64,000 nt of DNA from positions 2,638,501 to 2,702,500 of the forward strand of contig CP126192.1 of the NCBI GenBank assembly GCA_030272155.1, given 5' to 3'. Below are positions 1 to 43,960 of the stretch, one piece after another. The notes under the pieces are model-generated. The model was given only the letters and a program-made list of their open reading frames with translations, had not been told where the DNA came from and searched no databases. How positions within the stretch are numbered: the stretch's first letter is position 1; the number at the start of each line of letters is the position of its first letter. The stretch is from Tetradesmus obliquus. Lineage: Eukaryota; Chlorophyta; Chlorophyceae; Sphaeropleales; Scenedesmaceae. The position numbers were made by a program, and so were the translations under genes.

Positions 1-3000
1 CCCCGCCTCCTGGGCCTCTGCTGCTGCCTGCTGCTGCTGCTGCTGCACCTGGCAGGCCTGCTGCTACTGCCTCCTGGTGCTCTGCGCTGCTGTCATGCCA
101 TGTAACTGAGACCTTGGTGCCTGCGTGCACCTCAGGCTTGCTCTGCGCCCTGGCTGCTGCGCCAGTGGCCTCCGTGTCAATGGCTGCAGCAGCGGCACGA
201 GACAAAGACATACAGACAACAGCATCCATCAGCACAAATGGCTGGCAAGTGGCTTGCCAGTGTAAGCGCGGCACATAGCAGACAAGTGCCAGCTGATGCT
301 ACGGGTGCAGCGGCAACCCTGTAGTGCAACATGATGTGTGCGCAATGCATAGCGATGGTGTCAGCTCGACGCTATGGGGTTGCACACCACTACAACCACT
401 CTCAGGCGACACCAGCGCACACTGTACAACTGTGCTCGCATCACTGCCACGTGCAATGCCGCGGCCCTTGCTCACTCTGCACGCGCTGCCGGATGGCGAT
501 CTCGTTGTGCACCCAGCCGTTGTAGCTCAGGAAGTCGGGCGGGGTCAGGCCCATGCAGGCGGCCAGCTGCGCAGTGAGCGGCGCCATGGCTGCATCAAAC
601 GCATCATGCATGGCGCGCGCCCTCTGCGGACCAAAAAAGGAAGACAAGCAAAGGAAGGATGATGGCGTAAATGCTGAAAAGGAGCAGTGGTGAGAGGCGC
701 AACGGCTGCAGGGTCGACTCCAGCATGCGGACCCTCTGTGGACAACAGACCAGAAAGTGGTGCAGCAGACTCGGGAGTAAGTGTGGCAAAAGACGCAGCA
801 GTGTGACAGCCTGATAGGCAGCAGCGGCTACCCAAGCCTGAGGCATGTTGAATGTGCCAGCCGTAACATCGCAACAAGGGGCGGAGGCCAGAGGGATCCA
901 GTGAGACATACACTACTGCTGCCAAGATGCATCCGGCATTTCCTGCTGCTATTCAAGCTACCCAGCGCCTGCATGGGGCTATAACTGCCGGGCATGGCAA
1001 GAACAAAACAGTATCCATCACTTATTGATCTGCACAGGTTGCATGCATATGTACATATGCCTGGCCGCGCACCTTCTGGCGCTCTTTCCTGTCCTCCATG
1101 TTGCCAGTGATCGTGCCGTCTTCGTCCAGCACCATATCAATCTCGCTGCCGCAGATGTCGCAGGTCAGCTGCTTGCTGCGGCTGCCGGGCGGCGGCATGA
1201 GCTTGAACACGTCCATGCTGTCGAATGTCCTGCCGCAGTTCACGGTGGGGCATTTGTACTTTTGCACCGCGTTGTTGCCACGCATCTGCTTCTGCAGGAT
1301 GAAAGGGTGAACAAAGAGAGGAGAAAGAGTCAGGGGACAAGCGGTTGCTTGGCAAGCAGCTGATGCACGCACCGCCATGTCCAGCAACGCACTAACTTTT
1401 GAAGGGACCGTCCAGATGCACAGCAGTCAGGGCACTCATGCAGCTGTTACCAGCCAGAGTACAGCCAGACGCTGCATGTGTCCTGCAAGCAGCGCCGCAG
1501 TCTACACACACCATGCAGCACTCGCTGGCAGCAGCAGGGTGCAGCGCACAGTCCAAGCACCAACCAGCAGCTTGATGCTGCATGTGCCCTGCAAGCAGGG
1601 CTGAGGCCTGCACAGCCCACACAGCCCTGTCTGGTGCACCACATGGGTACAAAGAAGTGCAGCGCACAGGCAACTGCGTGCAACTGTCTGTGAGCAGCCC
1701 CACGCGCCTGCCAGTTCTTCTTCATCATGGCCAGCCGCCAGCGCACGCTGTCCAGCATGCGTGGGTAGTCCAGCGCGCAGTAGCTGATGATGCGCCCCGC
1801 CACGATGCCCTCGTCTTCTTCCTCAGCATCTGCAGCCAATTGGAGTTGAACCAGGATTTCGAGCATGTTTTAAATCACCCATGCCTAGAGCATGGTGCAA
1901 CCAAGACAGACAATAACAGACCCCGCTTTGGGAGGATTCACAGCACTTCATGCCCACCTGCAACGTTTGTGCCTTCCTGCCCCGGCGCCGGCCGCAGCCC
2001 CGCTTGCACCATGAGCTCGCGCTCTCGCTTGCGTGCGCGCTTGCCCTCCTTCTTGTGCTCTCGCTGCACCAGCTGCTCCTGCAGGACCACATGACAATAT
2101 GCAGGGCCAGCATACAATATCATGGTCAGCGTGACAGCGGCAAAGATGCACCAAGCCCGCTGGTGCTGCACCAGCTGCTCCTGCAGAAACAGGACCGGCA
2201 AACAAGCAGGGCAAGCATGCAAAAACATGGTCAGCGTGAGAGCAGCAAAGATGCAACCAAGTCCGCTGATGCCGCACCAGCTGCTCCTGCAAGCAACAGC
2301 ATGCAGGCAGGCAATCAGCACGTAATCAGCATACAACAACATGGTCAGCAGAAGAGCGGCTCAAAAGTTACCTCGGCACATTGATACAAACTGCCATGCT
2401 CTCAAGCCCTTGTTTAACCCAAACGCTACCAAATCCACATTGGAGGCACGAGTATCACAGCAATGCTGGCTTGCTTGTTCGCATCATCGACGGAAGCAGG
2501 CTTCATGCTGTGGCATGCCCCATCCTGCAAGCACCCCTGGCATGCCACTACCTCCCAGCCCTGGCTGCTGTTGCTGCTGCTTGGTGCCCCTTGGCAACCC
2601 AACACCCAACCTGCTCACATGGCACGCAGCAAGCTGCTGCTGCTGTGGCTTTGCCGCTGCTGCCGCATCAGCTGCTGTGGTGTTGCCAGCCAGCGCACCT
2701 GCTCAAAGTAGCGCATGGCCTTGCGCACCATCTTGGGCGGCAGGTTGAGGTCGCGTGCCAGCACATCTTCCTCCACCCACTGCTTCTCAGCCAGTGCAGT
2801 CAGCAGCACAATGGCCAGCCCGCTGGTGTCTTGCTGCAGAGACAGAGATGTACAGAAAGCAGGCGGGAAGTGCATGTGTGTAGGTGGGGTGGGGTGGGGT
2901 GGGGGGGGGGGGGGGGGGGAGCAGGACAGCACAGAAGGAAGAGACGGCCATTGGGTCTGAGCACTGCTGTCAACGGCACCTCATGTCCGCTGTTGCATCC

Positions 3001-3321
3001 TCCTCCGACAACAAACAAGGCCCGCTGCAGCAAACGGCCGCAGCTGCCAGCATGGAGTGTATGTAGCTGCAGCACAGCTGGCACCAGCTGTTCCTGCAAG
3101 CTTACCAAGCTAATTACCTGTGCTTTGCGCTTGGCCTCCCGCGCCAGCTGGCTGGCCTTTTTCTCCTCAAACATGGCCATCTCAGCTTCAGCAGGGTTCT
3201 CCGGCTTTTTAGGCTCTGCTGCATCCACCCACCAAGCAGGAGGGCACTGGCCACTGTAGAACATGTGGCCTAGCATAATAACTAGCTTCTTGTAGGCCGC
3301 TGGCACTGTGATGGCACTCAT
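1..3321 (-). CDS. Transcription initiation factor TFIIE subunit alpha, 3' end beyond window
   Basis: Large subunit of general factor TFIIE, which recruits and stimulates TFIIH in the RNA polymerase II pre-initiation complex. Exons on the minus strand, all in phase: 3321-3118, 2833-2699, 2078-1958, 1829-1708, 1291-1073, 623-476 and 183 to beyond base 1; about 377 residues are visible. Exons 1-3 give the N-terminal winged helix (AYKKLVIMLGHMFYSG, then EEDVLARDLNLPPKMVRKAM, then EQLVQREHKKE). Exon 4 holds the conserved SYCALDYPRMLDSVRWRL stretch. Exon 5 holds the C4 zinc ribbon (KYKCPTVNC and CDICGSEIDM). Its first pair is CX4C, where human and plant proteins have CX2C. Exon 6 matches the helix after the ribbon, and exon 7 the acidic Ala-rich tail. 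Intron 4 only works as a GC-AG intron (CAG/GCGCGT). Introns 2 and 4 contain internal duplications. Start chosen at 3321, which gives MSAITVPAAYKKLV. It is divergent from the next gene over 467 bp. Identification is very secure. Confidence 0.95.
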
Positions 3322-3788
3322 GGCGCTGCTGCTGCTCTTGCAAGGCCCCTGAAGCCACTCCTGCAAGCCACGTGCTGCTGCAAGATGGGTTTGACACCCG
3401 CGGTCTCTCAACGCTTGTGCAGCCTCAAGGTAGCATGCTGTTCAATAGCGCTGCTGGTGCAGGACAGCAGCAGATCTGCCTGCAGCACCAGCTTACGCCA
3501 TGCAGGTGCTTGTTCGTGCACACCAAGACCAGGATGAGTGAATTGGTAGGGAGCAACAGCCTTGGGTTCACGCAACCTCGTGTCCCAGCTATGAATCATC
3601 AAGTGCAATGACAGCAATAAATGCTGCGCCGGAGCCTGCGGGAAGGAACAGAAACATGCTGATGTACAGGGTCTGGGCAATACCACCAAAATGACATGTC
3701 CCTTCCCTTTTCACAGGCCAGCACCGGGTCGATCCCATTTGGTAGGATCACAGAGTGCGTACATATCAATGAGAATGCGTGCAAAGCT
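3322..3788. promoter_or_regulatory. Divergent intergenic region between TFIIE alpha and BRAP2
   Basis: The 467 bp separate two start codons pointing away from each other, so both promoters must lie here or in unrecognised 5' exons. I see no convincing TATA box. An in-frame ATG at 3696 upstream of the chosen BRAP2 start could extend that protein by 31 residues. Confidence 0.5.
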
Positions 3789-6338
3789 ATGTTTCACATC
3801 GTGATCGAGCCTATCAAGCGCCAAATGAGCGAGTTACTGCCTTCCGAGGACGACAATGATTACACAGAGGTCTTTCGAGAGTCTTTGGATACAGAATGTG
3901 TGGAGTTCTCTGTTGGCAACCCCCGGGTAGAGCACATAACTGGCATAGTGCACCTGTACAAGCGCAACAGCACACCGTACGGCTCTGCTGCTGTGGCTCA
4001 GGCTGCCAGTACAACGCCACAAAGCAGTGCCCAGGTGCGTGCGTGCCTGGCTGGCAGCCAGCGAAGGCAGTAGCTGCTGAGGTGGTAGTGTTGTGCTGCT
4101 GCATGGACATTGGACCACTGGGTACTTGTGCAGCAACACTAGCATGCATGCCTGTATGCACTGCTCCATTCCAGCTACAACCCCTCTGCTGCATCCAGCA
4201 ATTGTTGCAGCAACAGCCCTGCGATTGCCTCTCTTTAGCCAGCCTCTGTCTCGCACAGGCCGCTGCTGCTGCCGACAGCTTTGATGGCAGCACCACAGTG
4301 TGCTGCCTGGCCATCCCAGCAGACATGTCTGTGGCGCACTTCTGCTCATTCATTGGTGCCTACTTGAGCGAGGTTAGGGCCATCCAGGTGAGCAGATTTA
4401 AAGATACATCCCTCCCAACTCCCTCCCCGCGCCTGAACCCTAGGTACTCAGCACTTATCCGTCTACCAAGCCATTACACAAAGCAGACTGCATGCCTGCC
4501 GCAAAGCTGCGAACATCCTAGTAGTGCAAGCCTGCTGCTGCTGCTTTCCTGCAACCACAAGTATATTGTTATGTATACCTCCGCAGGTGCTGCGCCGCGA
4601 GGGCGTGCAGCCCAGCGTGTGCATGGTGCTGCTGAGCTTTGCGGGGCAGCAGCAGGCGGACAGCTTCCACGCGGACTTCCACGGGCAGCCCTTCTCAAGC
4701 CTGGAGCCAGACATACTGTGCAGGTGCGTGCTGCGCATTAGCTGCATTGCTGCCCGCTGCTGCTGCTGCTGCTCCAATGATTGTTGCTGGAGCCAGACAT
4801 CCTTTGCAGGTGCGCGGCTGCAACCAGCTGGCATGTATGACAGCTGAGCCAGCTGTATATAGTGACAGCAACGCATTAACACTTGCGGTGTGTGCGTATG
4901 TGGTGTGTCAGCCTGAGCAGCTGCATTGTCGCACGTCTGCGGCACTACTGCGTGTTGTCTGTGTATCCTTGCAGCCACCGTGCATGTCGGCCTGTTTCAT
5001 CATCCTGCATCCTGCCGGCGTGTGTGTATGCTTGCAGGCTGGTGTTTGTGCGCAGCGTGGAGGTGCTGTCAGCCAGGGGCAGGCCCACCCTCACTCTGCC
5101 AGCAGCAGCAAACAACGCAGCAAACACCGCAGCCAGCAGCACAGCAGCAGCAACGTCCTCAGCTGCAGCGACCGCTGCTGGAGCATCAGCAGCAGCAGCA
5201 GGCAGCAGTGCAGCTAGTGCCAAGGTGGCAGCGGCAGCTGGTGCCGCTGACGCAGGTGGCAAGGCAGGCAATGGCAGCAGCAGCAGCAAGGCCAGTCAAT
5301 CGCCTAAGCATAGTGAAAGGGACAAACCAGCAGAGGTCAAGGCAGCAGCGGCAGCAACAGATGTTGCAGCAGCAGAAGCCAACAGCAGCAGCAGTGCTTC
5401 CGAGAATGCTGCAACAAGCAGCAGCAGCAGCACCGCAGCAGGCAAAGGCAGCAGTGGTGAAATTTCAGCAGCACCTGAAGCACCAGCAGCGCCAGGCACA
5501 GACGGGCAGACCTACGCATCTGTTGCATCCGGCGGCGCAGCAGCGCTCAGCCCACCTTCCGGCCCTGTAGCCCCTGCTGCTGCTGCTGCGGGTGGCAGTG
5601 GTGCTGCTGTTGCTGTCGCGTCGTCTGCCGCGCCGTGTGTGCTGTGGCTGGAGGCCCCCCAGGGCACCACTGAGCTGCCCACCTGCCCGGTGTGCCTGGA
5701 GCGGCTGGACGAGCACATCAGCGGCATCGTGACCACGGTAGGGGGATAGCTCTATCAGGTTCAAGTATGCTTGAGCTCATATCAGCTGCCATGTGCTGGC
5801 TGGGCCAGCTTATTGCCTGGAGGCACCAGCCCCTGCTGGACAAGCACAGGAGCTGTGAAAACTCACGATCAGTTTGCTTTGACGTGCGGCAGCCAACTTC
5901 ACAGAAGAGTGGTGAGAGGTAAAGCTCTGGTGCTTACATTACACTGATTACACTGATTGCAATGAACAGCGCCTAGCTGGCCGCCCTGCTGTGTGCAGGT
6001 GTGCAACCACCGCTTCCACGGGGAGTGCCTCAAGCGCTGGGGCGACACCTCCTGCCCCGTGTGCCGCTACTGCATGTACAGCGCCAGCACCAGCACCAGC
6101 CGCTGCAGCACCTGCGGCACCAACGCCAACCTGTGGATCTGCCTCATCTGCGGCCACGTGGGCTGCGGCAGGTGTGCGGCTTTCGCTTCAAGATGCCACG
6201 CTTGCAGTAGTGGCCGCCATTCGTGTTTCTGCTCGCTGCCGTTGCGCCAGACAGCAGGTCTACTGCACATGCAAGTGATGGGATGCAGGTGCTAGTGTCG
6301 ATTGCATGCACTGTCTGGAGGTTATATAACTGCTGCTG

Positions 6339-6373
<35 letters not shown>

Positions 6374-8047
6374 TACAAGCAGGGCCACGCCAGCGACCAC
6401 TGGAAGCAGTCGGCGCACTGCTACGCGCTGGAGCTGGAGACGCAGCGCGTGTGGGACTACGCAGGTGCGCGGCTGCATGCAGCAGCAGCAGCAGCAGCAG
6501 CAGCAGCGTTTGTCAAGCTGTGTGGGATCCTCCTGAGTGGCAGCAGCAGCAGCAGCAGCAGCACTCGCTGAAAGGGAACCATACAGTGGCCATGGCTATG
6601 CTGGGGCACCCCTGACCTCATGTCCCGCTGCTGCTGCTGCTGCTGCCGGCAGGTGACGGCTACGTGCACCGGCTCATCCAGTCAAAGACTGACGGCAAGC
6701 TGGTGGAAGTACCTTCACCAGCCCCTGCATGCAGCCACAGCAGCCCTGGACACCACAGCCACCACCAGCAGCAGCACAGCAGGCACCGCCACAGCAGTGC
6801 GGCACGCGCCATGGATCGCGCCGGCAGCGGGTGCTCCGGCGCAGCAGCAGGCAGCGGCAGCGGCGGCGGCGCTGAGCAGGGTAGCGGCTGCGGCAGCAGC
6901 AGCTGCCCGGTGTGTGTGGATGAGCAGGCGCAGATGAAGGAGGCGCTGGTCAGCAGCAAGCTGGATGCTATAACGCTAGAATACAATTACCTGCTGACGA
7001 CGCAGCTGGACAGCCAGCGGCAGTACTTTGAGGGCTTGCTGAGTCAGCAGGAGGCGGCTGCGCGGCAGCAGCTGGCATCGGTGCAGCAGAAAGCGGAGGC
7101 TGAGGCGGTGCAGCGTGCGGCGGCGCTGGCGACGGCCAAGGAGGCAGAGCGGCGGCGGCAGCAGATGGAGCGCAAGCTGGTGCGATGAGCATCCCATTCA
7201 CCTGCGATGTGGTTGCTGCGATGAGTCAGCTGGGTACTCAGCTAGCGGAGCCTGGCAGTGACAGCGCACTTAGACAGCTCTGCATGCTAAGCGATTGTGT
7301 TGCTGCTTGCGGGGTGCAGTACAATCCACACTGCTGCCTTACATGCCTACTGCTGCCAGCCAGCGCCCCGCTCAGCCTCTCCGCTGCGCTTCCTGCAACC
7401 TGTTGCGTTGTGCAGAGCGAGCTGTCGTCTGCTGCCGCCAAAGCTCGTCACTGCTACCATGCTCTAGCTACAGCTTGTATTTCCCGTATCCTTTCCGCTG
7501 TGCTTTGTGCAACAAACCTGTTGCTGCGATCGCAGAGCGAGCTGTCGTCGGCTGCCGCCAAGGCCGCAGAGGAGCGGGAGTTCCTGCGCAGCCTGAACGA
7601 GACGCTGCTGGCCAACCAGAAGGAGTTTGGCGCCAAGCTCACCGCAGCGCAGGCGGCAGCAGCGGACAAGGACGCGCAGCTGCAGGACCTGCAGGAGCAG
7701 GTGCGGCAGCGCTGGCGTGGTCAGGCGGTGTTGAGTTTTTTGGTGCAGCGTTGGAGAGGCGCATGGCATTGTTGCAGTTGCCACAGGAATAATGGTGTGA
7801 CACTTCTTAATAAGGAGAATAGCTGGGATTGTACCTCACGGCAACCAATACTGCTGCTGAAGATGTTGTGTTGCATGGCCGTCGCCACTGCCCTTTGCCG
7901 TTGCAGGTGCGCGACCTCATGGTGTTCATCGAGGCGCAGAAGACGATCCAGTCGGCGGGCGGCGAGCTTCAGGATGCCACGCTGCTGCCGATGCCCGCAA
8001 AGGAGGCCAGCAGCAGCAGTGGGCGGCGGCGCAGCAGCAGAAAGTAG
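3789..8047 (+). CDS. BRAP2-type RING and UBP zinc-finger E3 ubiquitin ligase
   Basis: Homologue of animal BRAP/IMP and plant BRIZ proteins, cytoplasmic ubiquitin ligases. Nine exons in phase: 3789-4034, 4259-4387, 4587-4723, 5038-5737, 5999-6171, 6373-6464, 6653-7179, 7536-7700, 7907-8047; 769 residues. The N-terminal BRAP2 (RRM-like) domain starts at SVGNPRVEHITGIVHLYK and runs through LVFVRSVEVL. A linker of about 150 Ala/Ser-rich residues follows. The C3H2C3 RING spans exons 4-5 (CPVCLERLDEHISG, CNHRFHGECLKRW, CPVC). The ZnF-UBP spans exons 5-7 (CSTCGTNANLWICLICGHVG, then CGRYKQGH, then RVWDYAGDGYVHRL). A coiled coil follows (LDAITLEYNYLLTTQLDSQR) and a basic Ser/Arg tail ends the protein. 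Start 3789 (MFHIVIEP) resembles plant starts; 3696 is the alternative. Introns 5 and 6 carry CTG runs before the acceptor. Intron 7 holds a decoy copy of the exon 8 acceptor. Confidence 0.93.
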
Positions 8048-9173: not shown

Positions 9174-12100
9174 TCAGCGCCGTTGCCAGCGCTCACGCTT
9201 GCGCGACCCACCCATGCCGCCGCTGCCTGCTGCTGCCCCATTACCCCTCTCTGCACCACTGCTCCACTGCCACTGGCCGCCGCCCGCAGCCGCACTGCCC
9301 CCTGCGTACTGCTGTGGCTGCCAAGCTAAATCAGCCTCCCAGCCCCCTCCTGCTGCTGCTGCTGGAGGTGCATCATCAGCAGCAGTGCCTGGTCTTTGCA
9401 TTGCCTCCTGGCAATCCAGCAGCAGCTCAAGCAGCCCCCATTGACTGCCTCTGTTGCTGCCGCCGCTGCGCTGCTGCCGTATGCTCGCCTTGTAAGTCGG
9501 CGATCGGTTGCTTGCATCAAGGTAATCGTCATCATCACTATACTCATCACCGTCCTCGCCCCAGCGTCTTCTCACCCGTACCTGCTGCTGCTGCTGCTGA
9601 GGCTGCTGCTGCTGCTGCTGCTGCGCCTGTTCCAGCGCCTGCTGCAGCCTGCCATGCAGCTTGCCAAACAGCTCCTCCACGTCAGCGTAGCGGTGCGAGC
9701 CGCCAGCAACCTCGCGCCCTGCAAACCGCAGGAAGTCCATAGTTGAGCAGACAGCAGCATGGCCACATGCAGTGCTGCTGGCATTGTATTTTTTGGCACA
9801 GCTCGCTGGCGTCTGCTGTGCGACCCACATCATGGAACGCAACCTGCTTGCAGCGTCCAGGTTGTGATGTCATCAATGACACACGTCAACAGCACCTTTA
9901 GAACGCCCCTGCCCAACCGCGTACCATGTTGATTACACGCACTGCACCCAGCCCTCACCCGTGAGGGGGTCCTCCAGCGACAGGATGCCCTTGCGGCCAA
10001 AGTCCCCGCCCAGGCTGGCCTTGCTGACAAAGCCGCCGCGCTTGACCGCCACCGCCTGGCGCGCCCAGTCAAAGTCAACGCCGTAGCGCTGCAGGAAGGA
10101 CAGCAGCATGGACCCCAGGTGGTCCACCTGGCCGCCTGCACCTGACATGGCCTGCGGCACGGCATTTGAAACAAGTTTAGGTTTTTTGAAAACAGATAGA
10201 GTGATGTGAGGCCTCACCAAAGTCATCATGTGCCCCGCAAACCATTGCACAGATAGGGCCTGCCTGTGATGCAACAGGCACAAAGCCAACAAGCACAGAC
10301 TGATGTGCGGCTGTGTTGCAGCTGCAGCGACTGCATCTGTCAAGGCAGCCCTGCCCTGGCATGCCCTGACCATATGGCGCGCCAGCACCATGTTGACTAG
10401 AAGAAGGTCATCACAAGCACTTGTTACAACTGTTATGTAGCTTACTGTATGCTCACACGCTCACCATGAGGTGTGCCAGCACCATGTTGACCAGGCTCCA
10501 GCTGCCCAGGCCGCCCATGTACACCTCAGACAGGCCACGCTGCTTCAGCACGCACTTGAGCAGCAGCGTCAGCGGCCGCACCGCGGTGAAGTCTTGCTGC
10601 TGCAAATACAGATACAGGGAGCAGGCAGTGCGCACAAGAGCATGACAGTAGCGCAGAGGTGACAAGGTGAGCATAGCAACGTGTCAGTTAGCTGGTAGGG
10701 AAAGCTTTTACGCACTGCGGCTGAGCAGCACTGCTGCAGGGCTGCTGCGCGGCAAACCCACATCACCATAGTATTGCCTTGCTGGCATACACCACAGCAC
10801 AGCACAGCAACAAAGCAAGCCACAGCCAGTACCAGCTGCGGTGAGCGCTGCAGTCCTGCAACCCTGCCAAATATCTCTGCTACCAACACCATCCCAAGCG
10901 GCAACATGGCAAGCACACTGCGGCTCGGATCACAGAATGGCAGGCGAGCTGCTACCAACACAAAGCGATGCAGCTGCTACACCGGTTGACCCGTCACTCA
11001 AAGGACTGAAGGAAGCGTGCTGCCTTGATGCCCCCGTCATCATTCAGCGACACAGCTTGAAAGCTTTAGCCTGCCCTCCAGCTGCAGCTTCAGCACCAGC
11101 TGGCACGCACCAGCAAACAACGCAACAAGCAAACCACAACATGTACCAGCTGCGCTGGCGTTGCGCTGCAGTAAACATTGTCTGCTGCCTAGGCCATTTG
11201 GCTACCAACACCATACAAAAGCAAGAACAATACTGGGCAAGTCAACTCACGAAGGACTGCAGGAAGTGTGCCGCCTTGATGCCCCCGTCATCATTCAGCG
11301 ACACGTCCAGCTCCAGCCCGCCCTGCAGCTGCAGCTTCAGCACAGGCACGCGCGCACGCGCGATCAACCTGCTGCTGGCCACGCCCAGCTCATGCTTGGC
11401 AGGGCCCCAGCGGCAGCTGCGCTCCAGCCGGCGCAGGCACGCCACCACCAGGCGCTTGCTGGCATCGTCAAAGCCGCCCGTGACTGGCTCGGGCGCAGCC
11501 AGGCCTGCAAAGGAATGTCGCGGTGGGTTCCAGGTGCCAAAGCAGCAGGCAGCCAGGGCTTTTAAGATGAGACAGATGCGGGGACACCGGGTGCTGAGAC
11601 ATGATGTGACTGCACATGACCTGCTGCCTTGCTGGCTGCTGAGCTGCTACCCCTGAATCATATGCTGCATAGCTGATGCAGCAGGGCAGCAACAAGGGCA
11701 CCTGGTTGCATGTCAATCACAGCGGCCTGCAGCCAACCCCTTACCTGTCAGCACCACGTCCAGGTCTGAGCTGTGCAGCGACAGCCCTGCGGCCCCGCTG
11801 CCAAACAGCGCCACCTGCATCGCCCGCGCATGCTCAGGCAGCGACTGCGCTGCCGCGCGGGTGAACGCTGCCAGGCAGGCATCCCTGTGCTGCTGCTCCT
11901 GTGCATCAGGCACCACTCGCTCTACAAAGGCTGCTATGTGGTCCTGCAAGCTATCTAGCCAGGCTGCAGCAGCAGGGTTGGGGTTGTTTGAGGAGGGTAG
12001 CTGCTTGCCAGCAGCACGTTGCTGGTGCGGCTGCTGCTGCTGCGGCTGCTGCTGGTGCCGCTGTGGCGGAGGCGGCTGCTGTCGCTGCAGCTGCTGCTGG

Positions 12101-12474
12101 TGCTGCCGAGCCAGCTGCTGTTGCTGCTGCTGAAGTAGCTGCCGCTGTGCCTGCTGTAGTAAGCCGTCGGCGCGCATGCGCTTTGTTGGCCGCTGAGTAG
12201 ACGCTGAGCTGCGCTGTACGTATTGGGGTGGTTGTTGCTGCTGGCTGTAGCCGTTCTGCAGTCGCGGTTGCTGTGGGTAGACAGGCTGCTGCAGGCTGGC
12301 CCCGCTGAACTGCTGTTGCCGCTGGCCAGGCATGGCCTGCTGCAGCTGCTGCTGCACCTGAGGTGCATACTGGTACGGTTGCTGGTTATACTGCTGGCTG
12401 TATTGCTGGCCCTGGTAGTATCCCTGCTGCTGGCCACACTGCTGCTGCTGCCAAGGTTGCTGATAACCTGCCAT
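9174..12474 (-). CDS. TRF4/PAPD5-type non-canonical poly(A) polymerase with Gln-rich N-terminus
   Basis: Nucleotidyltransferase of the TRF4/5 (PAPD5/7) class. In other organisms these add short A tails to nuclear RNAs for exosome decay, as part of TRAMP. Exons: 12474-11745, 11504-11251, 10599-10465, 10151-9959, 9718-9174; 618 residues, all in phase. Residues 1 to about 200 are Gln/Tyr-rich, a prion-like composition. The catalytic core follows: ALFGSGAAGLSLHSSDLDVV (GS and DxD) at the end of exon 1, and the third acidic residue in LELDVSLNDD of exon 2. Exon 3 carries the PAP-associated signature LKQRGLSEVYMGGLGSWSL. Exon 4 has GSMLLSFLQRYGVDFDW and LSLEDPLTG. Exon 5 has VAGGSHRYADVEELF, then a Gln run, an acidic patch and a Gly/Arg-rich basic tail. 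Intron 2 contains a diverged tandem copy of the exon 2 3' end. It is divergent from MED7, consistent with co-expression of RNA polymerase II and RNA-processing factors. Confidence 0.92.
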
Positions 12475-27456: not shown

Positions 27457-30147
27457 ATGGCGCCGAAATCTAAAGGAGGGGGTGCTGAGGAGAAAGCCAA
27501 GGAAGTGCTTACAGCAGTGCTGCTTGCTGATAGCTTTACACAGGTGCGTGGGTGCAGCATCTGTAAAGCATATATTGTGGTTTGGTTAGCATGCTGCGGA
27601 CGCTGGGAGCGATCTGACACTAGTAGCAGCGCATACGCTGCTGCCGTCAGCATGAGTAGTAGTAGTAGCAGCAGCAGCGGCAGCAGCAGCCTTGCACATT
27701 TGGCACTTCACACGTGACTTTCCATCAGTAGTGCTGCAAAACTATCCATACTCTGGTAGTAGCGCAGCAGCAGCAGCATCTGAGCAAAGGTGCAGCACTT
27801 TTTGCTGAGCATCCATCAAAGCACAACAGGCTCATCACCTGCACAGCTTCATCAGCAGCACCTGCCATCACCACACCACGGAATTGTTTGCATCTGTCCT
27901 GCAGCGCTTCCGGCCCATCACAGTGGAGAAGCCCAAGGTGCTGCTGCCGCTGGTGAATGTGCCGCTGCTGGAGTACACGCTGGAATGGCTGGCACTGAAC
28001 AAAGTGGAGGAGGTGTGTGGCGGCCTCTGCAGTGTACCCTAGCGTCTGTGCAGTGCAGAGGCGCGTCTTGTGTCTCTGCATGCTTTATGCCGCACACGAA
28101 TCAAAATTTGTGTGAGGCTGACAGCAGCATGGCAGCAGCTCGTAAAAGAAAGAACACAGTACGCAGCTGCCTGTGGGCGGCATCCACATGCAGCTGCTGT
28201 GGGACAGTCAGCAAGCAGCTGTAGTAGGTAGACGCGAGGCATGCGACTGCTGGCTACAACACAACGCTGGCAGCAGGGCACATCCCTTGTATGCCTTTAG
28301 TGGTGTTGAATGGCAACCGCAGTGACAGCAGCAGCAAGAGCGCAATAGCAATAGCGCTCGCAGCAATTTCTCAGACACAAGGACAGTGAAGACACACTGC
28401 AGTCATGGCAGCAAGAGATAGATGGTAGCCACGCCTACACAAGCAATGGCGCAACCGTCAGCAATTGCAGAAGCAATTGGCTCATGCTGGTTGAACTGTT
28501 GCCTGGGGCAGCCGCCGGCATGGCAGCTGTGCTGCAGGTGGCAGCGTGCACAGTAGTATTTGTGCAACTGCACAAAACGTTGCATCTGATGTGCTACTAG
28601 CTGCCGCTGTCCTGCATTTTAAATCGCAGTGCATCCACCATGTAGCAGCGGCAATCGTAACAGCGTCCCCGGCAGTTGCAACAGCAGCAGCCTGTGCACG
28701 TCTGGCAAGTGTAGCAGGTTACGGGTATCCTTGCACACTGCGCACCGACTCAATCAGCTGACCTCCCGCCACCTGTACCACTGCTGCTGCTGCTGCTGGG
28801 TTAGATCCTGGTGTTCTGCTGCGCGCACGCGGACCAGATAAAGGCGCACCTGGCTGACAGCAAGTGGCTGAAGCAGCGCAGCCCGCGCGTGAGCACCGTG
28901 GTGTCCACCAACTGCCTCAGCCTGGGCGAGGCCATGCGCAGCCTGGACCAGAAGGACATCATCAAGGGCACGTTCATCCTGGTCTCAGGTGCGGCTGTAA
29001 CATGCGTGGCTAGTTGAGCAGCCGCATGACCTGGCAGGTGCCGCTGTGATTGGGGCCGTGCATAGTCGGGCGTGCTTTCGCTTGAATCATGCTTGTGCGC
29101 CCGCTTGATTTGTACGTACCTTGGCTTGCTCCTGCTGCTGCCGTTTGCTGCCAGGCGACATTGTGACTCACATTGACCTGGGCCCTGCTTTACTTGTAGC
29201 AGAACATGACTTGCTGCTGCTGCTGCCTGTCGCTGCAGGCGACACTGTGTCCAACATGGACCTGGGTCCTGCGCTGGCTGCCCACAAGGAGCGCGCCGAC
29301 AGGGACAAGGACGCCATCATGACCATGGTGGGCGGCTGGCTAGTGATAGTATTGTTTTTTTCATCATATCATCATTGTGTATATTTTGTAATAACTCATA
29401 TCAAGACCATGGTGTGGCGGCTGGCTGGCATGACAGCACGCAGGTTGCCACCACCCAGCAGGTTGCAAGTCTCTTGGCTCTTTGGCTCTTTCACCAGGGG
29501 CAGCTTACTTTGAGAGACAGAGCGAGCACATGGATGTAGGCGCAGTGTTGCCACTGCAGGGAACGCCAGGGCCACCACAGCAAGGTGTGCTTGGATGCTG
29601 ATGCATATGTCTGCTCTGCCATGCACTGCTGCACCGCACCAGGTCATGAAGCCCACACACGAGCTGCACCAGTCACACACTCAATCTGCAATCGCCACTC
29701 CAGCACTGCGTGCTAACCCCGTCGCCTGCCTTGTACTGCACTGCCTTGTACTGCTGCCCCACAACAGGTCATGAAGCCCACACACGAGCCGCACCAGCGG
29801 CTGCGCCTGGGTGACACCAGCCTCCTAGTGGCCCTGGACAGCAGCAGCCAGCGGCTGCTTAAATACCAGGAGCTAGACAGCCCAGCAGCAGCAGCAGCAG
29901 CAGCAGCAGGTGGCCAGCGCGACAGCAGCAGCGCGCACCATGGGGGGCACCACCATCACCACCACCACCATGGACGGCGGGGGCGCAGCAGCCAGGTCTG
30001 GAAGCTGGATGCGAGCCTGTGGAGCGAGCGGGACTGTGTGCAGGTGTGTGGCGGGATAGTGGTGGGTGCGTGCAGTGAGGGGTTTGTGGTGCCGCCAGAT
30101 TGCGGCCGGGTCAGCAGGGATCCTTGTGCACTGCTGGTGTGGAGGGT

Positions 30148-30188: not shown

Positions 30189-32070
30189 TGCATCAGCTGC
30201 AACAGGCCTGTGGCATGGCCAGCAGTGCTGCAAGTAGCCTTTGTTGGGACAGCTGCTTGCCTGACCTGCACAGCAGATGCAAGGCGGCGTCATGCCGCAC
30301 CCTGAACACACCCCTCTGCTGTAATAATATTTCATGAGCATTCTGCGCTTCTGCTTGCCGCACGGTACGCGACTCCCCCCGCAGGTGCGCACGGACCTGA
30401 TCGACACCAACATCTCCATCTGCTCGCCCGAGGTGCTGCTGATGTTCAGCGACAACTTCGACTACCAGAGCCTCAAGCGCGACTTTGTGGCGGGCACGCT
30501 TAGCGAGGAGGAGCTGGGCAAGAAGATCCACTGCCACATCCTGCAGGTGGGCGCGGTTCCATCTGTGTTTGTGTCCTGATGATGCGCCGTGGGGAGGGGG
30601 GTTGTCCCGCAGGTTGCAGGCGTTGGGGCTGCAGGACTAGGTGTGGTTGCCTACTGTTGCATCACCGCAAGGATGGTGCAGTGTGTGGCAAGTTCATGGC
30701 TGCTCAGCCAAGGTCAGGGCTTACAGAAAACTGCACTATTTAGCGCAAATTCTACCCTGCAAGCAAAGAACCTGCAGCAGCGGCGTCTCACACGTCTGCC
30801 GCTCCCATGTCCCTCCTTGCTGCTGCCTAGGGCAAGTCTATGCAGCGCACGTCCACAACCTGCGCAGCTACGACGCTTACCACAGGACACTGTTGCTTAC
30901 CTCTTCTGCCTCTTTACGCTGCTGTGACGCCGCACCTCTCTCCGTGTGTTGCCGCAGGGCGAGTATGCTGCGCGCGTGCACAACCTGCGCAGCTACGACG
31001 CGGTCAGCCGCGACCTGCTGGCGCGCTGGGCGTTTCCCTTTGTGCCCGACACCAACGTCTTCTACAAGGCGGGGCCCTGGGGGCCCAGCAGCTACCGCTA
31101 CGCGCGCGGCCACAAGTGCGTGCGCTGGTTGCTGATTGAGTGATGCCCGTGTTTGCTTGCACGCATGAGTTATAACAATGCGCAGAGTTATATCAGTGTT
31201 ATATCTACAGTGCGCCGCTGTTTGGATGGACAGCTGGGGCTGTTTGCACTCATGTGTCTATCTGTAACACGGCTAACCAGTCCCGGCTGACCTTGACAGT
31301 GCTGATTCGACTCAAACAGCACAGCTACCGCTATGTGGTGGCAAAAAGTACTTCGTCCTTTTGGTCTTTAGACGCTTTTGTTCTATCGAACAAAAGGTTC
31401 CAAGGAACAAAAGTTTTTTGCCCTTTAAATAGGTATAAGAGAAATCTAATTTTAGAATACGTAATTAAAAATATTTAAATAATTTTATATTCTATTTTTA
31501 TAGACTTTATAAAATAAAAAGTGCGAGTGTGGCGGAATTGTCCTATCGTGCTCAATATTTAGAAAAATAAAAAAGGGGCGTTGACAGCAGCGTTGACTCG
31601 GTAAAAATGTTTGTATCTACCGCTGCTTGCGCTGCGCAGGTACCTGGAGGCAGTGACCGGCTGCAGCCGCAGCGCGCAGCTGGGCCGGCTGCTGGCGGTT
31701 GGCGCTGGCGCCGCGATTGGCGACGGCTGCATTGTCAGCCAGAGCGTGCTGGGGCGCGGCGTCAGCATCGGCAAGAACTGCCGAATCACGGGCTGCTACC
31801 TGCAGGTGGGTGTGGCAAAGCGGGTGGAGCAGACAGGCAGGGCAGGCAGGCAGGCATGCCGGTGTGCTTGTAGGTTGATGCAGTAGTGTGTTTGGGCTGC
31901 GGCGTGCAGGTGCAGGGCAATGCGTGGGGCGAGCAGGCTGTGTCCTGCATGCCATGCATGGAAGTGCGCTCGTCTGTTTATGCATAGGCGTAGTGTAGTC
32001 CTGATCAATGAACTGTGTGCTGTATTGCTTTAACGGTTACTCACTGCTGTGCCGCTACCTCTTGTCTTGC

Positions 32071-32129
<59 letters not shown>

Positions 32130-34982
32130 GCAGGACGGCGTGGTCATCGGTGACAACGTCACTGCCAGCCACGCGCTGCTGTGTGAGGGGGTGGTGGTGG
32201 GCAGCGGCGCCACCATCTCACCCGGTGTGGTGCTGAGCTACGGCGTGGTGGTGGGCCCGAGGCACACCGTGCCTGCCTACGCCATTGTCAGCCTGTGCAA
32301 GCAAATCACGACAGAGGTGAGGCGGCGGCTGTGAGTGAGGCAACAGCAGTTGGTTGGCAGCAGGTGCAGCAGCGAGTGCAAGCAGGGGTGGTGTATAATG
32401 CATGTCACTGGGGTGGCTTGCGGCGCAACAGACAAGGTCCGCTGCTGCTGCGGCCTAGCACACCGGTGCTCGCAGCATCTTCTTCTTCTGGTGGTGGCCT
32501 TGCATTGCACTTTGCAAATGTCTTTGTTTGAAACCAATTGTAACAAGCATGCCTATGCTTACACCCTCAGCATTGTTGAGGCATGCATTAGCAGCGCATC
32601 CAAGCACCTCCGCGTGCGGCACTTTGCTGATCAAGCTGCAAGTTCCCTCAACAAACAGCCTTGTGTTTTGAGTTAGACCTGTGGCAGCAGGGCAACGCTT
32701 GACGCCGCCCTTGCTATGTGGTGCTGCATGCTGCTGCAGGTGTCGCTGTCGGACGATGAGCTGGAGTATGCGTCAGCAGGCAGGGTCAGCAGCAGCAGCG
32801 GGCGGCCGCCAGCGCGCCGCGCACGCAACTCGACCAGCGGCGGCGGGCGCCAGGTGCGCTGCAGCAGCGGCTATACACTGCACGTGTGCGGTGTCGAACC
32901 TTGCCTGTATGCAGAGTGCATGTCTGCTCTCAGCTGTGCGTGTGCTGCAGCAGCCTTGCTTTGCATAAACAGATCCACTGTAGTTTAACCCTGCTGCTGC
33001 TCTGTCCTTGCACAGTCGATACATTCTTCACCTGTGGTATGTACTGCTCTGTTTGCAGCCGCGGCGGTCGAACGCAGCGTCAGAGAGCGAGAGCAGCAGC
33101 AGCAGCAGTAGCAGCGACAGCGACAGCAGCAGCGAAGAGAGCAGCAGCAGCAGCAGCACCTTTGGCGACACGCTTGGGGTCAAGAGCATGGAGAAGCCTA
33201 GTGCCCTGGCAGTAAAAGCAGCACAGGTGCTGGCAGGCGGCGACAAGGACCAGAAAGCGCAGATAGCAGGCCAGGTTTCAGAGCTAGGGTTTGCGGTGCA
33301 TTTGGTTGGCGAGGGCGGTGCTGGCTACGAGTGGCCAATGACAGACGGCTACAGTGCTGAGCTGTACTCCATTGCGCCACCACCCATGACGTGAGTGTCA
33401 TTGCTGCTTTGCAGCATTGCTGCTGCTGCTGCTGCCGTTGCTGCTGCTGCTGCTGCCGTTGCTGCTGCTGCTACTGCTGCTATGAGGCTGGGACTGTGTA
33501 CTAGAAGCGTGTGGAGTTGCTGTTAATCACCCCTTCCCAGCGTAAGCTGTCGCTGAAGCCGCCACGCCATATGCTCAACTGCATCTCCTGCTGCTGCACA
33601 CGCCCTGCAACGCTGCTCCCCGCAGGCTGGCTGAGCATGTGTATGACTCGGATGCCGAGAATGACGCTGCTGGTGGCGCCAGCGATGACGCAGCGGGGCC
33701 TGGCACGGCGCGGGGCGCAGCAGATGAGCCGGGCGAGCGCAGCGGCGGCGCAGGCAGGGGCGGCGCAGCTCTGGACCCTGAGACAGTCTTCATGCAGGTG
33801 TGTGGCTGTTGTGATCAGAGGGCAGGGGGCAGAGCTGGAAACCACAGGGCAGGGGGGTACCAGCTCGCTGTGTTGTTGAGCTGGGATGTTGGTGCGTTGG
33901 CATGGGCCGCTCCGCTTGGCCATGGCGCAGCAGCTAGGGTTGTCGAGAACCTTGCTGTAGCTGCCGCTTGCTGTGCTAGTCTTACCAGTGCGGTGTACCT
34001 TCATGTTTGGATGCTTGCCTGCATTTAAACTTTGGCTAGCTCCTCCCAGCACACTGTCTTCATCGGGCCCTGCTGCCACTGCTGCTGCTGCGAGCAGGAA
34101 GTGGGCGAGACGTTCCTGCGCTGCGTGAAGGAGCGCTTTGCTGAGACCAACGCGGTCATCGAGCTCAACGGGCTCAAGATCGCGGAGGACCGCACCTTTG
34201 CGGACTGCGCGCGCTACATCTTCACAGCCATGCTGCAGGTGAGTCCGGCTGTGGATGGGTAGTGCAGCAGCGCTGGGCTACTTGCATACACTTGCATGCA
34301 CTTGCTGATGTGCTACATCTTCACAGCCGTTGTGCAGGTGGGTATGGCTGTGGATGGACCAAGCGCGGGTCAGCGCCCGCGGCCAAAGAAGGCTTAAACA
34401 TGAGCTGGAACGCAGCTCTGTGCAACATTCTGCACGCAGACACAGTGGTGCTCCCCTCGGCTTTGCCCTTTTCTCCTCTGCTGAGCACTTGACCAACATG
34501 TCTCTTCTGCTTGCTGCGTTTTTGCCTGCTGTACCTGCCGCAGCTGTGCCTGCCGTGCCCGGGCTGGGTGTTGCCCGAGTACGGCTGCCTCTTCCCGGCT
34601 GACGCTCCCGACAGCAGCAGCAAGGACGGCAAGCTGGCGCTGCTGAGCCGATTCAAGCAGCAGCTGGGCGAGTGGGGCAACCTGCTGCGCCGCTTCCTGC
34701 GCAGCGAGGACGACCAGGTGCGGTGCAGGGTTCAGCAACTGCAAGGCGCGTGCTGTTTGAACTGTTGTCCTGTTTGTTTGGCATGCTGGCTGTGTGAGGG
34801 TTGAAGGTGTTTGCCGTGTGCATGTGGCCGGCTGCTGTTTGATGCACCCAACCCACCACATGGTACTGGCGTCCCAGATTTCTTATGCTCCATCTGCTGC
34901 TCCATTTCTAGCCATGTGCGTACGCATTATGTGGCATTGTGCGTGTAATGTGTGACCTGCAAGCACGTTGTAACTCTTTGTG

Positions 34983-35015
<33 letters not shown>

Positions 35016-39730: not shown

Positions 39731-42700
39731 TCACTGCGCCTCCTCGCCGTCGTTGCCGTTGCCCAGCCACTGCGGCAGCAGCCAGAGACAGAAAACAATA
39801 ACGCAGCAGCGCACGTGTCAAGTGAACCACACCTTCCTGCAGCAAGAGAGCGCCGCCTCTGCCAAAACAACAACCCACAAACTCACCCACACCCCTGCAC
39901 AACGCATCCAAAGCAAGCGGATCTGGCTGATACACTGCATCTGACCATGTGTCGCAGCCTGAGCCCACCCTCCCCGCCCACCTGGTTTGATGAAGGCTTC
40001 GGCTGTGCCGCCAAACTCGCCAGCTGATACACTACAAAGCACAGCATGCCTGCATGCAGTACGCTATTGTCTGTCAACAGCATTCATGTGCAGCTGAGCG
40101 GCCCACCTGGTTGATGAGCGCCTTGGCTGTGCCGCCAAACTCGTCATGCGCGGCCTTCGCCAGCACATACACTACACAACACAGCATCCCTGCATGCACG
40201 ACGCTGATTGTCCGTCAACAGCATGCATGTGCAGCTGAGCGGCCCACCTGGTTGATGAGCGCCTTGGCTGTGGCGCCAAACTCGTCATGCGCCGCCTCCG
40301 CCAGCTCGTACACAGCCTGCTGCCCACCCGCGGCTGCAGCCACAGACTTCTTCGCCACGTACCTGCAGCGGGGCAGTGAGCACACAAGGGCGATTGCTAA
40401 TTTTGGCGCAAAGTCGCAGTCAGGTCAGAGCAGCTGCCCACAGCATCCACGTACCTGCGGCGGGGGCTAGGGGCAAGCAGAGCAGGGCGCAGCAGTTGCT
40501 GGCGATGAGGCTGATACAAAACCACACAGCAAGGAAATAATGCTGGAATTGAGTGTCATGCGTCGTGGCCAGTACACAGCTACCACACAGGGAAGGATAG
40601 GCTGCTGCATGCGCTGTGCCTGCTGCACCGCGCACGTGCAACGCTCCATGTGTGCCGGCATGCTTGCTGCAGGGGCTGGCAAGTTGCAGTTCACACAGGC
40701 GCTGCAGAGGTCGTGACAGCACGGTGCTGCAGCGCTCCATATGCGCCAGCCTGCTGCGCTGCATGAGCTGGCAGGCTAGACTGCAGCCGGGCGCTGCAGA
40801 GTCACAAAACACTGGGCCTAAAAGCCACACCTCACACACACCTGCAGCGCTCCATGTGTGCCAGCACGCCTGCCGCTCCCTCCTTGTTGCTGAAGACAGT
40901 GGCGGCATCGTCCCTGTCATAGCCCGGCTGTGGGTCCTTCTCAACGCCCAGCTGGCTCAGCTGCCGCCACAGGTCCTCTGCAGAGGCAGGGGCAGGATTG
41001 GCAGCAGCGAGTTGAATGTCAACACATTTGCCTCAAGCAGCCACAGACGCGGCAGACGCCGTGGCATGGCGGCTGAGGTCAGAGGGGGGAACAGCCAAGA
41101 GCTGGACGAGCCTCAAGCCTAGATGCTGCAGCATCTGAAGAACATTCAACAGAAGCAAGAGGGCAAGCAAGGCAATCATGGGGGTGCAAGTGCTTTGTCT
41201 GCCTATCGCTCTTGCCCCTGCTGCTGCTGCGCACCTGCCTCTATCTGCCCGTTTGGTGCCAGCTGCAGCAGCGCCACCACCACCGTCATCAGCCCACGCA
41301 TGGCGTCCTCGCCAGCATCGTGCACAAACCTGGGCAGGCAGCACCAGCAGCGCAACATGCACAACCTCAACCATGCAGCAGCGCAGCGCAACGCCCACAA
41401 CATCACGCCCGTGGCAGCGCACCAAAGCATGCACGAATTCACGCACGCAGCAGCGCAGCAAGACTTGCACAAACACATAAGTAGAGCAGCGCAGTGCAAC
41501 ACACACACACACAATCAACCACGCAGCAACACAGCGAGATATGCACAATCCTAACAACGAGCAGCGCAGCGCAACATGCAAAAGGCAACGAGCCAAGTCA
41601 TGACCCGGGCACATGGGTGTGAGGCTGCAGCGCAAACACTTGCAACAGACCGCTGCAGCACAAACACCTGCAACAGCAAGCTGCAATGCTGCAGCACACC
41701 TCGCAAGGCAGCGCAACACCTAACTGCCAACGCGATGTGCTGCACCCCTGGCCGGCGGCTTTACCTTCCCGCAGTTCAATGCAGCAGCGAGCGCTTACCT
41801 GACCAGCAGTGTTGGCGGCAGTAGCGAGCGCTTACCTGACCAGCAGTGTTGGCGGCAGTAGCGAGCGCTTACCTGACCAGCAGTGTTGGCGGCAGTAGCG
41901 AGCGCTTACCTGACCAGCAGTGTTGGCGGCAGTAGCGAGCGCTTACCTGACCAGCAGTGTTGGCGGCAGTAGCGAGCGCTTACCTGACCAGCAGTGTTGG
42001 CGGCAGTAGCGAGCGCAGCACATACGTCTGCGTGACAGACCCGCCGGCAGCTCCGCCGCCACTGCCGTCTGCGAACAGAAGGTGGCAGCGAATAGCAGCA
42101 GCCTCACAACAGTGAAGCTGGCACACAGTGTATGACACCTGCTGCTGCAGCTGAGCCAAAGCATGGCCAAAGCATGGCGAGATGGACGCCCTCTGCAGCT
42201 GCATTGCTGCATGCCTGTGCCGCTCCTCCCACAAGTGTGCATCAACTTGCATCAACCGCGCCAGGTGCTGCCCGCTTGCTGCAAACACCACCACAGACGC
42301 AGCTGCAGCTCCGCCCCTCCACGCAAGCCAGCTGACCTCCTGGTTTTGCTTCCACTCATGTGCTGGCGCGCTGCTTGACCGCCTGTGCGCTGCGTCTTTT
42401 GCAGTGCCTGCCAAACGCCAACCCACCTGCTGCTGCTCCAGCCGCTGCTGCTGCTGCCGTGCCGCGCGCAAGCGCGCTGGCTGCGTGCCGCTTCATCTCC
42501 CGCATCTCCAGGCCAAAGGCAGTGGCCAGCTTGGCAGCAGCCAGCGGCAGCACCACGCCCGGCAGCTTGTTGCCGCCACGGCCCACCCTGTGCGTGACGT
42601 CCTTCTGCAGGTAGCAAGCAGCAGTGCAACACACGTGCTTGAGATCTTTGTTGAGAGGTCATCAAGCAAATGCAGGCATCTCAAGCTGCGCTGCTGAAAC

Positions 42701-42969
42701 TCTAAACCAGCATCGCAGCCGTAAGCCGCCTCAGCTCAGGCACAAGTGACAACAGGCTTGCACACATGGGGGCGAATACACACAGGGAATGGTGTGGCAA
42801 AACTCAGACCTGTGTACTGCAGCGCAGCGCCGGCCGCACCTGGATGACGTCGTTCAGCTCCTGCCGCTTCACAGGCATGCCCGGCTTCTCGTAGTTCTTG
42901 AACAGCATCCACCGCACCACGCGCGCCACTGCGCTGTCGATGGCCTGGCAAACACAGCAGCAGCATCAG

Positions 42970-43016
<47 letters not shown>

Positions 43017-43960
43017 CTGAGCATAGGATGAAGGCCACAGCAGCTGAAGCACGTGCAGCACGTGCCGATTATGACCTCTGGTGCTACTGCTAGGTGCAGC
43101 ATACGTGTCTGTACAATGACAGACATCCAAAACCCTGCTGCTGCCTGTCCCTGCTTCGTGGACAGGCCTGCTGCTGCCTGTGCTGTCTGTACAATGACAG
43201 ACATCCAAAACCCTGCTGCTGACTGTGCCAGCGCTGCTCACATTACGCGTGAAGCCCAGCGCATCGCCCTTGGCCTCTGCCTCGTCTGCCTCCTTCTTGT
43301 AGCGCTCAATCTGCAAGCAGAGAAACAAAAAGTGTACACTCAATAAGCTAGTATCAAGCATAAGCACGCAATCATGTGCATAGTAGTGCTCATGAGCCAG
43401 CGTGCCCCAGGTCAAGAATGCCGACCTTGTGGCAGGCTGCAAGCTGCATGAAGCATGCACTGGACTGCTTGCGCCCTAAGCAACTGCTGCGTTGAGACAA
43501 GCGTGCGGTTTGTACGCACCGCTTCTTGTAAGCTATCCATGTCCTGCTGGCTGATAGCGACCTGCTGCTGCTGCAGCGGCACGAAGCCTGCACCAGCAGC
43601 ACCTCCTGGTGTTTGGTCATATGCTGCTGCTGCCGCTGCCGCGCCTGTTGCCGCTCCTGCATCTGGATCAGCTGTGTTGCTTCGTCGCCGTTTGCCTGCA
43701 CACATTGGATGTAGGTGTGTCACTATCACAGATGTGGCGCTGCTCTGCATGCTGTGTCCATGCTGTGTGTGCTGCAGCAGCAATGGCGCTATGCACGCAG
43801 TTCAACGCATGCCAAGGTGCACAGACACGAGAGCTGGGGTGTCAAACTCACCTCTGCCTGATTGCGTGCTCTCTAGCTGAGTCTCCTGTACAGTGTCTTC
43901 CTCATCTGCTCCAGGGTCAGCAGACCTCCTTCTTGAAACCCTGGTCGATCGAGCGCTCAT
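39731..43960 (-). CDS. SMC5/6 complex subunit NSE3 (MAGE-domain protein)
   Basis: NSE3 pairs with the NSE1 RING ligase and bridges NSE4 in the SMC5/6 genome-stability complex. Ten exons, all in phase: 43960-43852, 43695-43520, 43310-43242, 42944-42840, 42604-42427, 42068-41984, 41329-41235, 40977-40842, 40362-40248, 39769-39731; 368 residues. Exon 1 (36 codons plus one base) opens with MSARSTRVSRRRSADP. The MAGE domain starts in exon 4 (IDSAVARVVRWMLFKNYEKP, MPVKRQELNDVIQ). Next come LAAAKLATAFGLEMREMKRH, then VTQTYVLRSLLPPTLLV, GLMTVVVALLQLAPNGQIEA, DLWRQLSQLGVEKDP, and RYVAKKSV with AVYELAEAAHDEFGATAKAL, matching both winged helices. The end WLGNGNDGEEAQ is predicted from one in-phase exon. 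A poly-Ala stretch interrupts the first winged helix. Its introns hold the richest splice-junction duplications of the window. Confidence 0.88.
39976..40303. repeat. Three diverged copies of the NSE3 exon 9 3' end with donor site
   Basis: The real exon 9 end (about 40248-40303) is followed downstream in minus sense by copies at about 40107-40163 and 39980-40023. Each keeps the CAG/GTGGGC donor and the ALINQ-like coding; the flanks between the first two copies are also alike, giving a unit of about 141 bp. Confidence 0.85.
41793..42014. repeat. Six tandem 37-bp repeats carrying the exon 6 donor of NSE3
   Basis: Units begin at 41793, 41830, 41867, 41904, 41941 and 41978 and are essentially identical. 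Each contains, in minus sense, the coding end of exon 6 (CCAACACTGCTGGTCAG) followed by GTAAGC. The donor at 41984/41983 is the one that keeps the reading frame to exon 7. Confidence 0.95.
42961..43229. repeat. CAG run and 77-bp direct duplication in NSE3 intron 3
   Basis: AGC/CAG triplets at about 42979-43017 (CTG in gene sense) are followed by a direct repeat: TGTCTGTACAATGACAGACA begins near 43107 and again near 43184, with the following about 25 bp nearly identical. Confidence 0.8.

Follow-up and report, generated by a model that had tools for sequence, protein, structure and literature searches.

Exon-edge copies in five genes of the window

The window analysed here is a 64,000-nt stretch of the Tetradesmus obliquus genome (104.66 Mb in 17 contigs), positions 2638501-2702500 of contig C2, and the coordinates of its features are given below as positions within it. 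Five unrelated genes in the window, for TFIIE-alpha, BRAP2, a TRF4-like poly(A) polymerase, eIF2B-epsilon and NSE3, carry within their introns diverged copies of the edge of an adjacent exon together with its splice site. Gene models were built with our own gene finder, which predicts from DNA only, required exons of at least 60 nt in training, made use of a coding score, and learnt CAG|GTGAG as the donor and TTGCAG|G as the acceptor signal. Single-exon open reading frames gave few Pfam matches; the joined models did better, with domains for BRAP2, the TRF4-like polymerase, eIF2B-epsilon, NSE3 (MAGE), MED7, an expansin-like and a hemerythrin-like protein. With a match score of at least 28, a copy was found at 11 of the 68 junctions of the five named genes, each gene having some, and the same 11 queries scored only 13-22 against reversed introns.

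In the TFIIE-alpha-like gene (- strand), an array of ~105-bp units spans 2063-2360, each unit containing a copy of the acceptor and of the 16 nt that begin exon 1958-2078; these copies lie near 2165-2191 and 2271-2291, followed by a decayed piece at 2327-2360 (lag 102 in the five-gene count). The model matched no Pfam family and nothing convincing among PDB sequences, and the assignment to TFIIE-alpha, taken from the preliminary description, is tentative. A 106-bp-lag duplication (75% identity) at 1462-1634 (-) in an intron of this gene repeats the acceptor-like sequence GCTTGCAGG; its source exon is perhaps very small.

In BRAP2 (+), whose model is backed by the Pfam domains BRAP2, zf-UBP and RING, the donor edge 4704-4728 recurs in the intron at 4790-4814 (lag 86), and the acceptor edge 7532-7564 is preceded by a copy at 7412-7444 (lag 120, 94%). 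In the TRF4-like polymerase gene (-; Pfam PAP_assoc and MTPAP-like central), the donor edge 10460-10494 has a copy at 10366-10400 (lag 94), and at a second donor about 115 nt of exon 11251-11504 were copied to intronic positions 11001-11121 (lags 251/247; 11001-11368 overall). Four junctions of eIF2B-epsilon (+) are affected: the acceptor edge of exon 29239-29327, with a weak copy at about 29155-29188 (lag 84; 29155-29272 overall), the acceptor region 29736-29797, copied at 29611-29672 (lag 125, 89%), the acceptor edge 30964-31001, copied at 30839-30876 (lag 125, 92%), and the donor edge 34213-34258, copied at 34312-34357 (lag 99, 87%). The second of these belongs to exon 29768-30043, which the gene finder had overlooked and which was entered manually for the five-gene count.

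In NSE3 (-), the donor edge of exon 40842-40977 recurs twice, at 40727-40750 (lag 115) and at 40633-40670 (lag 206), the whole lying within 40633-40876. The same gene, supported by the Pfam MAGE domain, contains at 41781-42016 a 37-bp unit that holds the donor and is repeated 6.4 times at 99% identity, the shortest unit and the most uniform edge array of the window; its exon is not among the well-scored exons and was counted in the five-gene tally only. In the last coding part of NSE3, a 141-bp unit is present in 2.1 copies (40017-40313, -), and the gene model takes both copies as exons, reading AAHDEFG(A/G)TAKALINQ twice; this could be an edge array or a genuine repeated exon.

Frequency, position and size of the copies in a larger sample

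The main analysis covered 314 kb, namely the window, 200 kb of C1 and 50 kb of C5, and 40 kb of C9, untouched until then, served as an independent test block. Junctions were counted if the exon was at least 60 nt long with a good coding score and the intron not longer than 1500 nt (484 junctions, 239 donors and 245 acceptors), and a copy was an exon edge that matched its own adjacent intron at a score of at least 30. Copies were found at 97 of the 484 junctions (52 donors and 45 acceptors), compared with 0, 2 and 0 when the queries were run against reversed introns, reverse complements and random other introns. The rates were 8/115 in the window, 75/319 in C1 and 14/50 in C5; the C9 block yielded copies at 4 of 37 junctions, with 0 in both controls. 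Where both junctions of an intron had been tested, 56 of 177 introns carried a copy. Thus the copies noticed in five genes in the preliminary description, and regarded there as too frequent for chance, are part of a far wider pattern that the controls do not reproduce.

Local direct repeats scoring at least 18 numbered 46, 376 and 58 in the three blocks, compared with 0-6 when the same sequence was compared with itself 5-15 kb away. Copies are in excess at junctions. In introns of at least 260 nt and at a score of 32, exon-edge probes matched their own intron in 78 of 310 cases and intron-interior probes in 31 of 310. Probes from the exon edge (0-60 nt) matched in 47 of 257 cases, as against 6 of 257 for probes taken 80-140 nt into the exon, and edge probes matched the intron beyond the exon's other side in 14 of 416. 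Duplicates cover 0.118 of the intron sequence, 0.160 of the exon sequence and 0.033 of the intergenic DNA. Fresh duplications with a lag of at least 70 were found at 22 loci, of which 16 touch a predicted exon, six are confined to introns and none lies in the 98 kb of intergenic DNA. Three of the six intron-only loci occur in introns with an edge array, two are minisatellites (19- and 33-bp units) in an implausible 5-kb predicted intron, and the last is an NSE3 duplication at 43106-43232 of the window (-; lag 78), which lies 10 nt into the intron from a donor and contains no exon sequence. Interior duplications with lags of 80-160 were present in 30 introns, and in 27 of these the exon query detected an edge array; the 28th is the eIF2B-epsilon intron with the overlooked exon, where an edge copy appears once the exon is added, and the remaining two are the implausible minisatellite intron and C1 158783-159484, for which the exon query found no edge copy. 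The junction excess depends neither on these interior-duplication counts nor on the counts of shared exon ends given below. The preliminary description had named a lack of junction excess as the observation that would speak against it; on the DNA side the excess is present, and the genome-wide habit of short tandem duplication that it proposed is supported, with the qualification that the duplications are concentrated at splice junctions.

The spacing of 37-310 bp given in the same description roughly holds, but it conceals a quantisation. Among 128 lags (8 from the C9 block), 68 form a class with a median of 119.5 (interquartile range 108-128) and 38 a second class with a median of 240, a weaker class lies at about 360, only 2 fall between 165 and 195, and none is below 80. 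In a broader list, 3 of 176 exon-intron repeats have a lag below 80, and the 37-bp array of NSE3 is a further exception. For 83 first copies with lags of 70-185, the unit measured 119.9 ± 19.0 bp, with an exon part of 48 ± 17, and the exon part was anti-correlated with the rest of the unit (r = -0.45); the steady quantity is the length of the unit. At 16 of 33 multi-copy junctions (query up to 150 nt) at least two copies share their starting position in the exon to within 1 nt.

The units lie head to tail, each with an exon edge and a splice site, as in a splice-site-bearing tandem repeat. The copies are limited to an edge, covering a median of 33% of the exon, and the other exon end was reached in 6 of 147 copies, unlike in tandem exon duplication, where a whole exon is copied in frame with both splice sites. 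On the intron side, 75 of the 147 copies lose homology 3-12 nt beyond the junction (30 of these at +5/+6). At donors, identity is 0.89 at +4 but 0.56 at +5; at acceptors it has dropped to 0.48 at -7. Median intron length rises with the number of copies, from 282 nt without a copy (n = 121) to 356 (27), 470 (18) and 621 (8) with one, two and three, and to 777 with four or more (3), a gain of 110 ± 19 nt per copy; in the C9 block the medians were 616 with copies and 473 without (3 and 7 introns).

A mobile element or introner as the source of the spacers was rejected, the spacers being unrelated across junctions; the NSE3 37-bp array has at least one match genome-wide. Nine junction pairs matched in their spacers, the only match of at least 30 nt being between two edges of one repeated region, and no shared element was found among them. 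The spacer of a donor array at C1 184980-185949 matches three other places in the sample at 80-86% over 36-50 nt (among the 25 of 35 far matches listed), so that fragments of a dispersed repeat may be present in some arrays.

Evolution of the copies and origin of the arrays

Mismatches between exon and copy amounted to 4.9, 5.6 and 15.0% at codon positions 1, 2 and 3. In a three-way comparison of the exon with its near and far copies, the odd one out at positions 1/2 (n 1986) was the exon in 8 cases, the near copy in 55 and the far copy in 60; at position 3 (n 973) the numbers were 46, 44 and 58. Because of the counts at positions 1/2, the exon is constrained by selection and the copies are free, with about 3-6% change per copy. 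A coding function of the copies, which the roughly threefold excess at third positions had suggested, was rejected, since the three-way comparison attributes most of that excess to silent change in the real exon. The nearest copy was more exon-like at 21 of 33 junctions and the farthest at 9, with 3 ties.

The intron parts of the units decay more quickly than the exon-derived cores. They were clearly homologous (z > 3) in 35 of 114 units, and z was below 2 in 62. In the clearly tandem group, core divergence was 3.2% and the 15 nt past the signal were 62.2% identical (control 30.3%); in 41 first copies with z < 2, the core had diverged by 7.4% at codon positions 1/2, and the 15 nt past the signal were 32.5% identical (control 27.3%). 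By our own estimate, free units of equal age with a core divergence of 7.4% should retain more than 80% identity in the intron part. Because the intron part is near background despite this modest divergence, the core is either younger than its unit or was copied without the rest. Units with z up to 3 retain some similarity: the true partner scored above the median of same-type nearby edges for 25 of the 28 acceptor units and 34 of the 41 donor units (59 of 69 pooled, compared with 34-35 expected by chance). We read the low-z units as probably old tandem units with a decayed intron part, the cores of which would have been refreshed, because intron-part similarity exceeds the control, unit length is steady and half of the multi-copy junctions share exon-side ends. 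If each unit started out as a complete tandem copy, parts of the repeats are more alike than their age allows, as is typical of concerted evolution.

The reading that we favour, with a probability of roughly 0.6, is that introns in this genome lengthen at their ends: units of ~120 bp that cross a splice junction are duplicated in tandem, and their cores are subsequently refreshed. A ~120-bp segment over the junction (~48 nt of exon edge and ~72 nt of intron) would be duplicated in tandem; the exon-proximal splice site would remain in use, and the new exon-derived piece would end up in the intron and be spliced out, with no cost to the protein and presumably neutral at the RNA level. Repeated events would produce arrays with lags of ~120, 240 and more, at ~110 nt gained per copy. 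The core would stay young and exon-like, and the intron part of the unit would often decay almost beyond recognition; the most likely route of refreshing would be recombination with the real exon, as unequal exchange or gene conversion, and the exon sequence, held by selection, would act as a permanent recombination anchor. The 120-bp size might, at a guess, stem from replication slippage or from duplication of the Okazaki-flap type.

Several observations weigh against this reading. Exon and intron calls derive from our own gene finder, which reads DNA only, and the copy rate in the window is below those in C1 and C5. The NSE3 duplication at lag 78 is a counter-example to strict junction anchoring, C1 158783-159484 represents an unanchored duplication of similar size, an array of ~81 bp in C9 (39197-39367) has no exon in it, and 5 of 35 intergenic repeats fall into the 80-160 lag bins. 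No common exon-side end was seen at 17 of the 33 multi-copy junctions. The ratio of non-synonymous to synonymous change between exon and copy is 0.24, below the ~0.5 that we would expect for a pair of one coding and one free sequence; pairs of copies also show a third-position excess (1.97), and lags are slightly enriched in multiples of three (53/36/31). Finally, mismatches were not clustered in 50 ungapped cores (combined p 0.48), and no mosaic conversion tracts were apparent, although the shortness of the cores limits the power of this test.

A stronger form of the same reading is that growth is anchored at the junction itself, which would drive or target the addition of ~120-bp units at either intron end, the exon serving as a lasting template that renews the copies. 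We put this forward tentatively, as possible though somewhat doubtful; if true, it could explain the long introns of this algal group.

Plain neutral tandem duplication, acting everywhere with neither refreshing nor preference for junctions, would leave a junction pattern by survivorship: pairs spanning an exon diverge on one side and interior pairs on both, and duplications within exons are lethal. The free evolution of the copies and the nearly equal involvement of donors and acceptors fit this explanation, and with introns of ~300 nt and units of 120 bp many tolerated duplications would, by geometry, have to cross a junction. It is nevertheless unlikely, as the fresh duplications, which decay has little affected, already show the preference (16 of the 22 loci touch an exon and none is intergenic), and the intron parts are far too diverged for cores that differ by 7%.

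Splice-junction-directed copying, in which a piece of exon edge reaching slightly beyond the splice signal would be inserted into the intron by template switching or an RNA-linked process beside an unrelated spacer, with later exchange between cores, would account for the sharp drop in identity at the homology edge, for its frequent position at +5/+6 and for the 62 units without clear intron homology. The excess of true partners in 59 of the 69 units with z up to 3 runs counter to it, as do the lack of a common element in the spacers and two features of tandem arrays, the steady unit length and the common exon-side ends. Direct capture of exon edges is a live rival, albeit a rather improbable one.

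A function of the copied splice sites as decoys for regulated alternative splicing or nonsense-mediated decay had also been considered in the preliminary description. The GT is intact in 60 of the 72 copied donors and the AG in 39 of the 48 copied acceptors, as that description had stated, but this is no better than the rate of the neighbouring exon bases. In 30 of 72 cases the score of the copied donor equals or exceeds that of the real one; the mean of copied donors, however, is 4.03, compared with 6.26 for real donors and 5.18 expected after free mutation at 5.5%, which may hint at weak selection against decoys. The copies are far more often the odd one out than the exon at codon positions 1/2, and 45 of the 47 gaps in the alignments have a length not divisible by three, in line with the frequent loss of the reading frame noted earlier. 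Judged from sequence, decoy function is thus very improbable.

The birth of introns from an AGGT-containing exon piece duplicated in tandem, another proposal of the preliminary description, is hardly credible as the main process. The register it predicts does occur above control level (at a score of at least 32, in 6 of 307 introns for exon end versus intron end and in 8 of 307 for exon start versus intron start, with 0 and 1 in the controls; at scores of at least 24, in 6-10 of 307 compared with 0-1 after permutation; at a score of at least 20, in 10 and 13 compared with 4 and 6), but at most in a small minority of introns, and we suspect that some of these cases are mis-segmented arrays. Copies of donor edges mostly lie near the donor (median relative position 0.26) and not at the acceptor, and lags track the ~120-bp unit and not intron length. 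The copies moreover contain intron signal bases, so that the junction must predate the duplication. Hypermutability of the intron parts as the sole cause of their decay is possible but not favoured, because fresh arrays retain their intron parts too.

Some further features of the window were observed. Arrays of CTG triplets (in the sense of the transcript) occur just upstream of acceptors at 6330-6369, 32068-32128 and 34985-35014 (+) and at 42955-43016 (-), placed as if they served as the pyrimidine-rich tract. A sharply AT-rich stretch in an eIF2B-epsilon intron (31340-31590; the window has ~56% GC) could be inserted organelle DNA. A 36-bp unit is repeated 3.1 times without mismatch at 52223-52333, within an intron of a small gene model, and two similar expansin-like genes lie in opposite orientation at 55059-56621 (-; the one compared with Pfam) and 59971-62348 (+).

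Comparison with known systems

The lengthening of introns is usually ascribed to transposons and small insertions. In a published table the introns of T. obliquus average 462 bp and those of three other Sphaeropleales 230-302 bp (PMC5966456), a difference for which edge duplication is a candidate explanation. Intron lengthening would be readable unit by unit, each copy recording the exon edge at the time of copying, and the arrays could serve as a molecular clock and be used to study decoy splice sites, gene conversion and duplication size in a natural setting. They open two testable questions: whether duplication is drawn to splice junctions, and how the spliceosome chooses among near-identical competing sites. 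The portion of PMC3488318 available to us contains nothing on such a pattern. In the literature searched (top-ranked, mostly open-access papers), no genome-wide pattern of junction-anchored units of one size was found.

Tandem genomic duplication is a standing model of intron gain (Rogers 1989), with cases in vertebrate ATP2A1 and a potato RdRp gene, and the potato study mentions a single 83-bp duplication within an existing intron (PMC4974935); near intron pairs in Drosophila have been discussed under the same model (PMC2891723). The arrays described here share with it the short duplication inside genes and the way in which splicing hides the added sequence from the protein. They differ in that no new intron is made: the intron pre-exists, the unit spans its junction and the intron becomes longer. 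A minisatellite that repeats a splice donor was reportedly described by Turri in 1995 from a human interferon-induced transcript. Its tandem units, each with an exon-end donor, are comparable to the 37-bp array of NSE3; it is, however, a single locus with short units, whereas the ~120-bp class is found at about one fifth of the sampled junctions and involves donors as well as acceptors.

Introners are mobile, mutually related elements that create introns, also in algae (PMC9860276). Like the edge arrays, they alter intron content across the genome, but in T. obliquus the spacers have no element in common and each array copies its own exon. In tandem exon duplication, which gives rise to mutually exclusive exons, exon sequence is likewise repeated within a gene; here only an edge is repeated, the frame is lost and each unit has one splice site. 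In concerted evolution, unequal exchange and conversion keep parts of a repeat similar. The arrays differ from it in that one member is a selected coding exon and that it is mainly the exon-derived core that stays similar.

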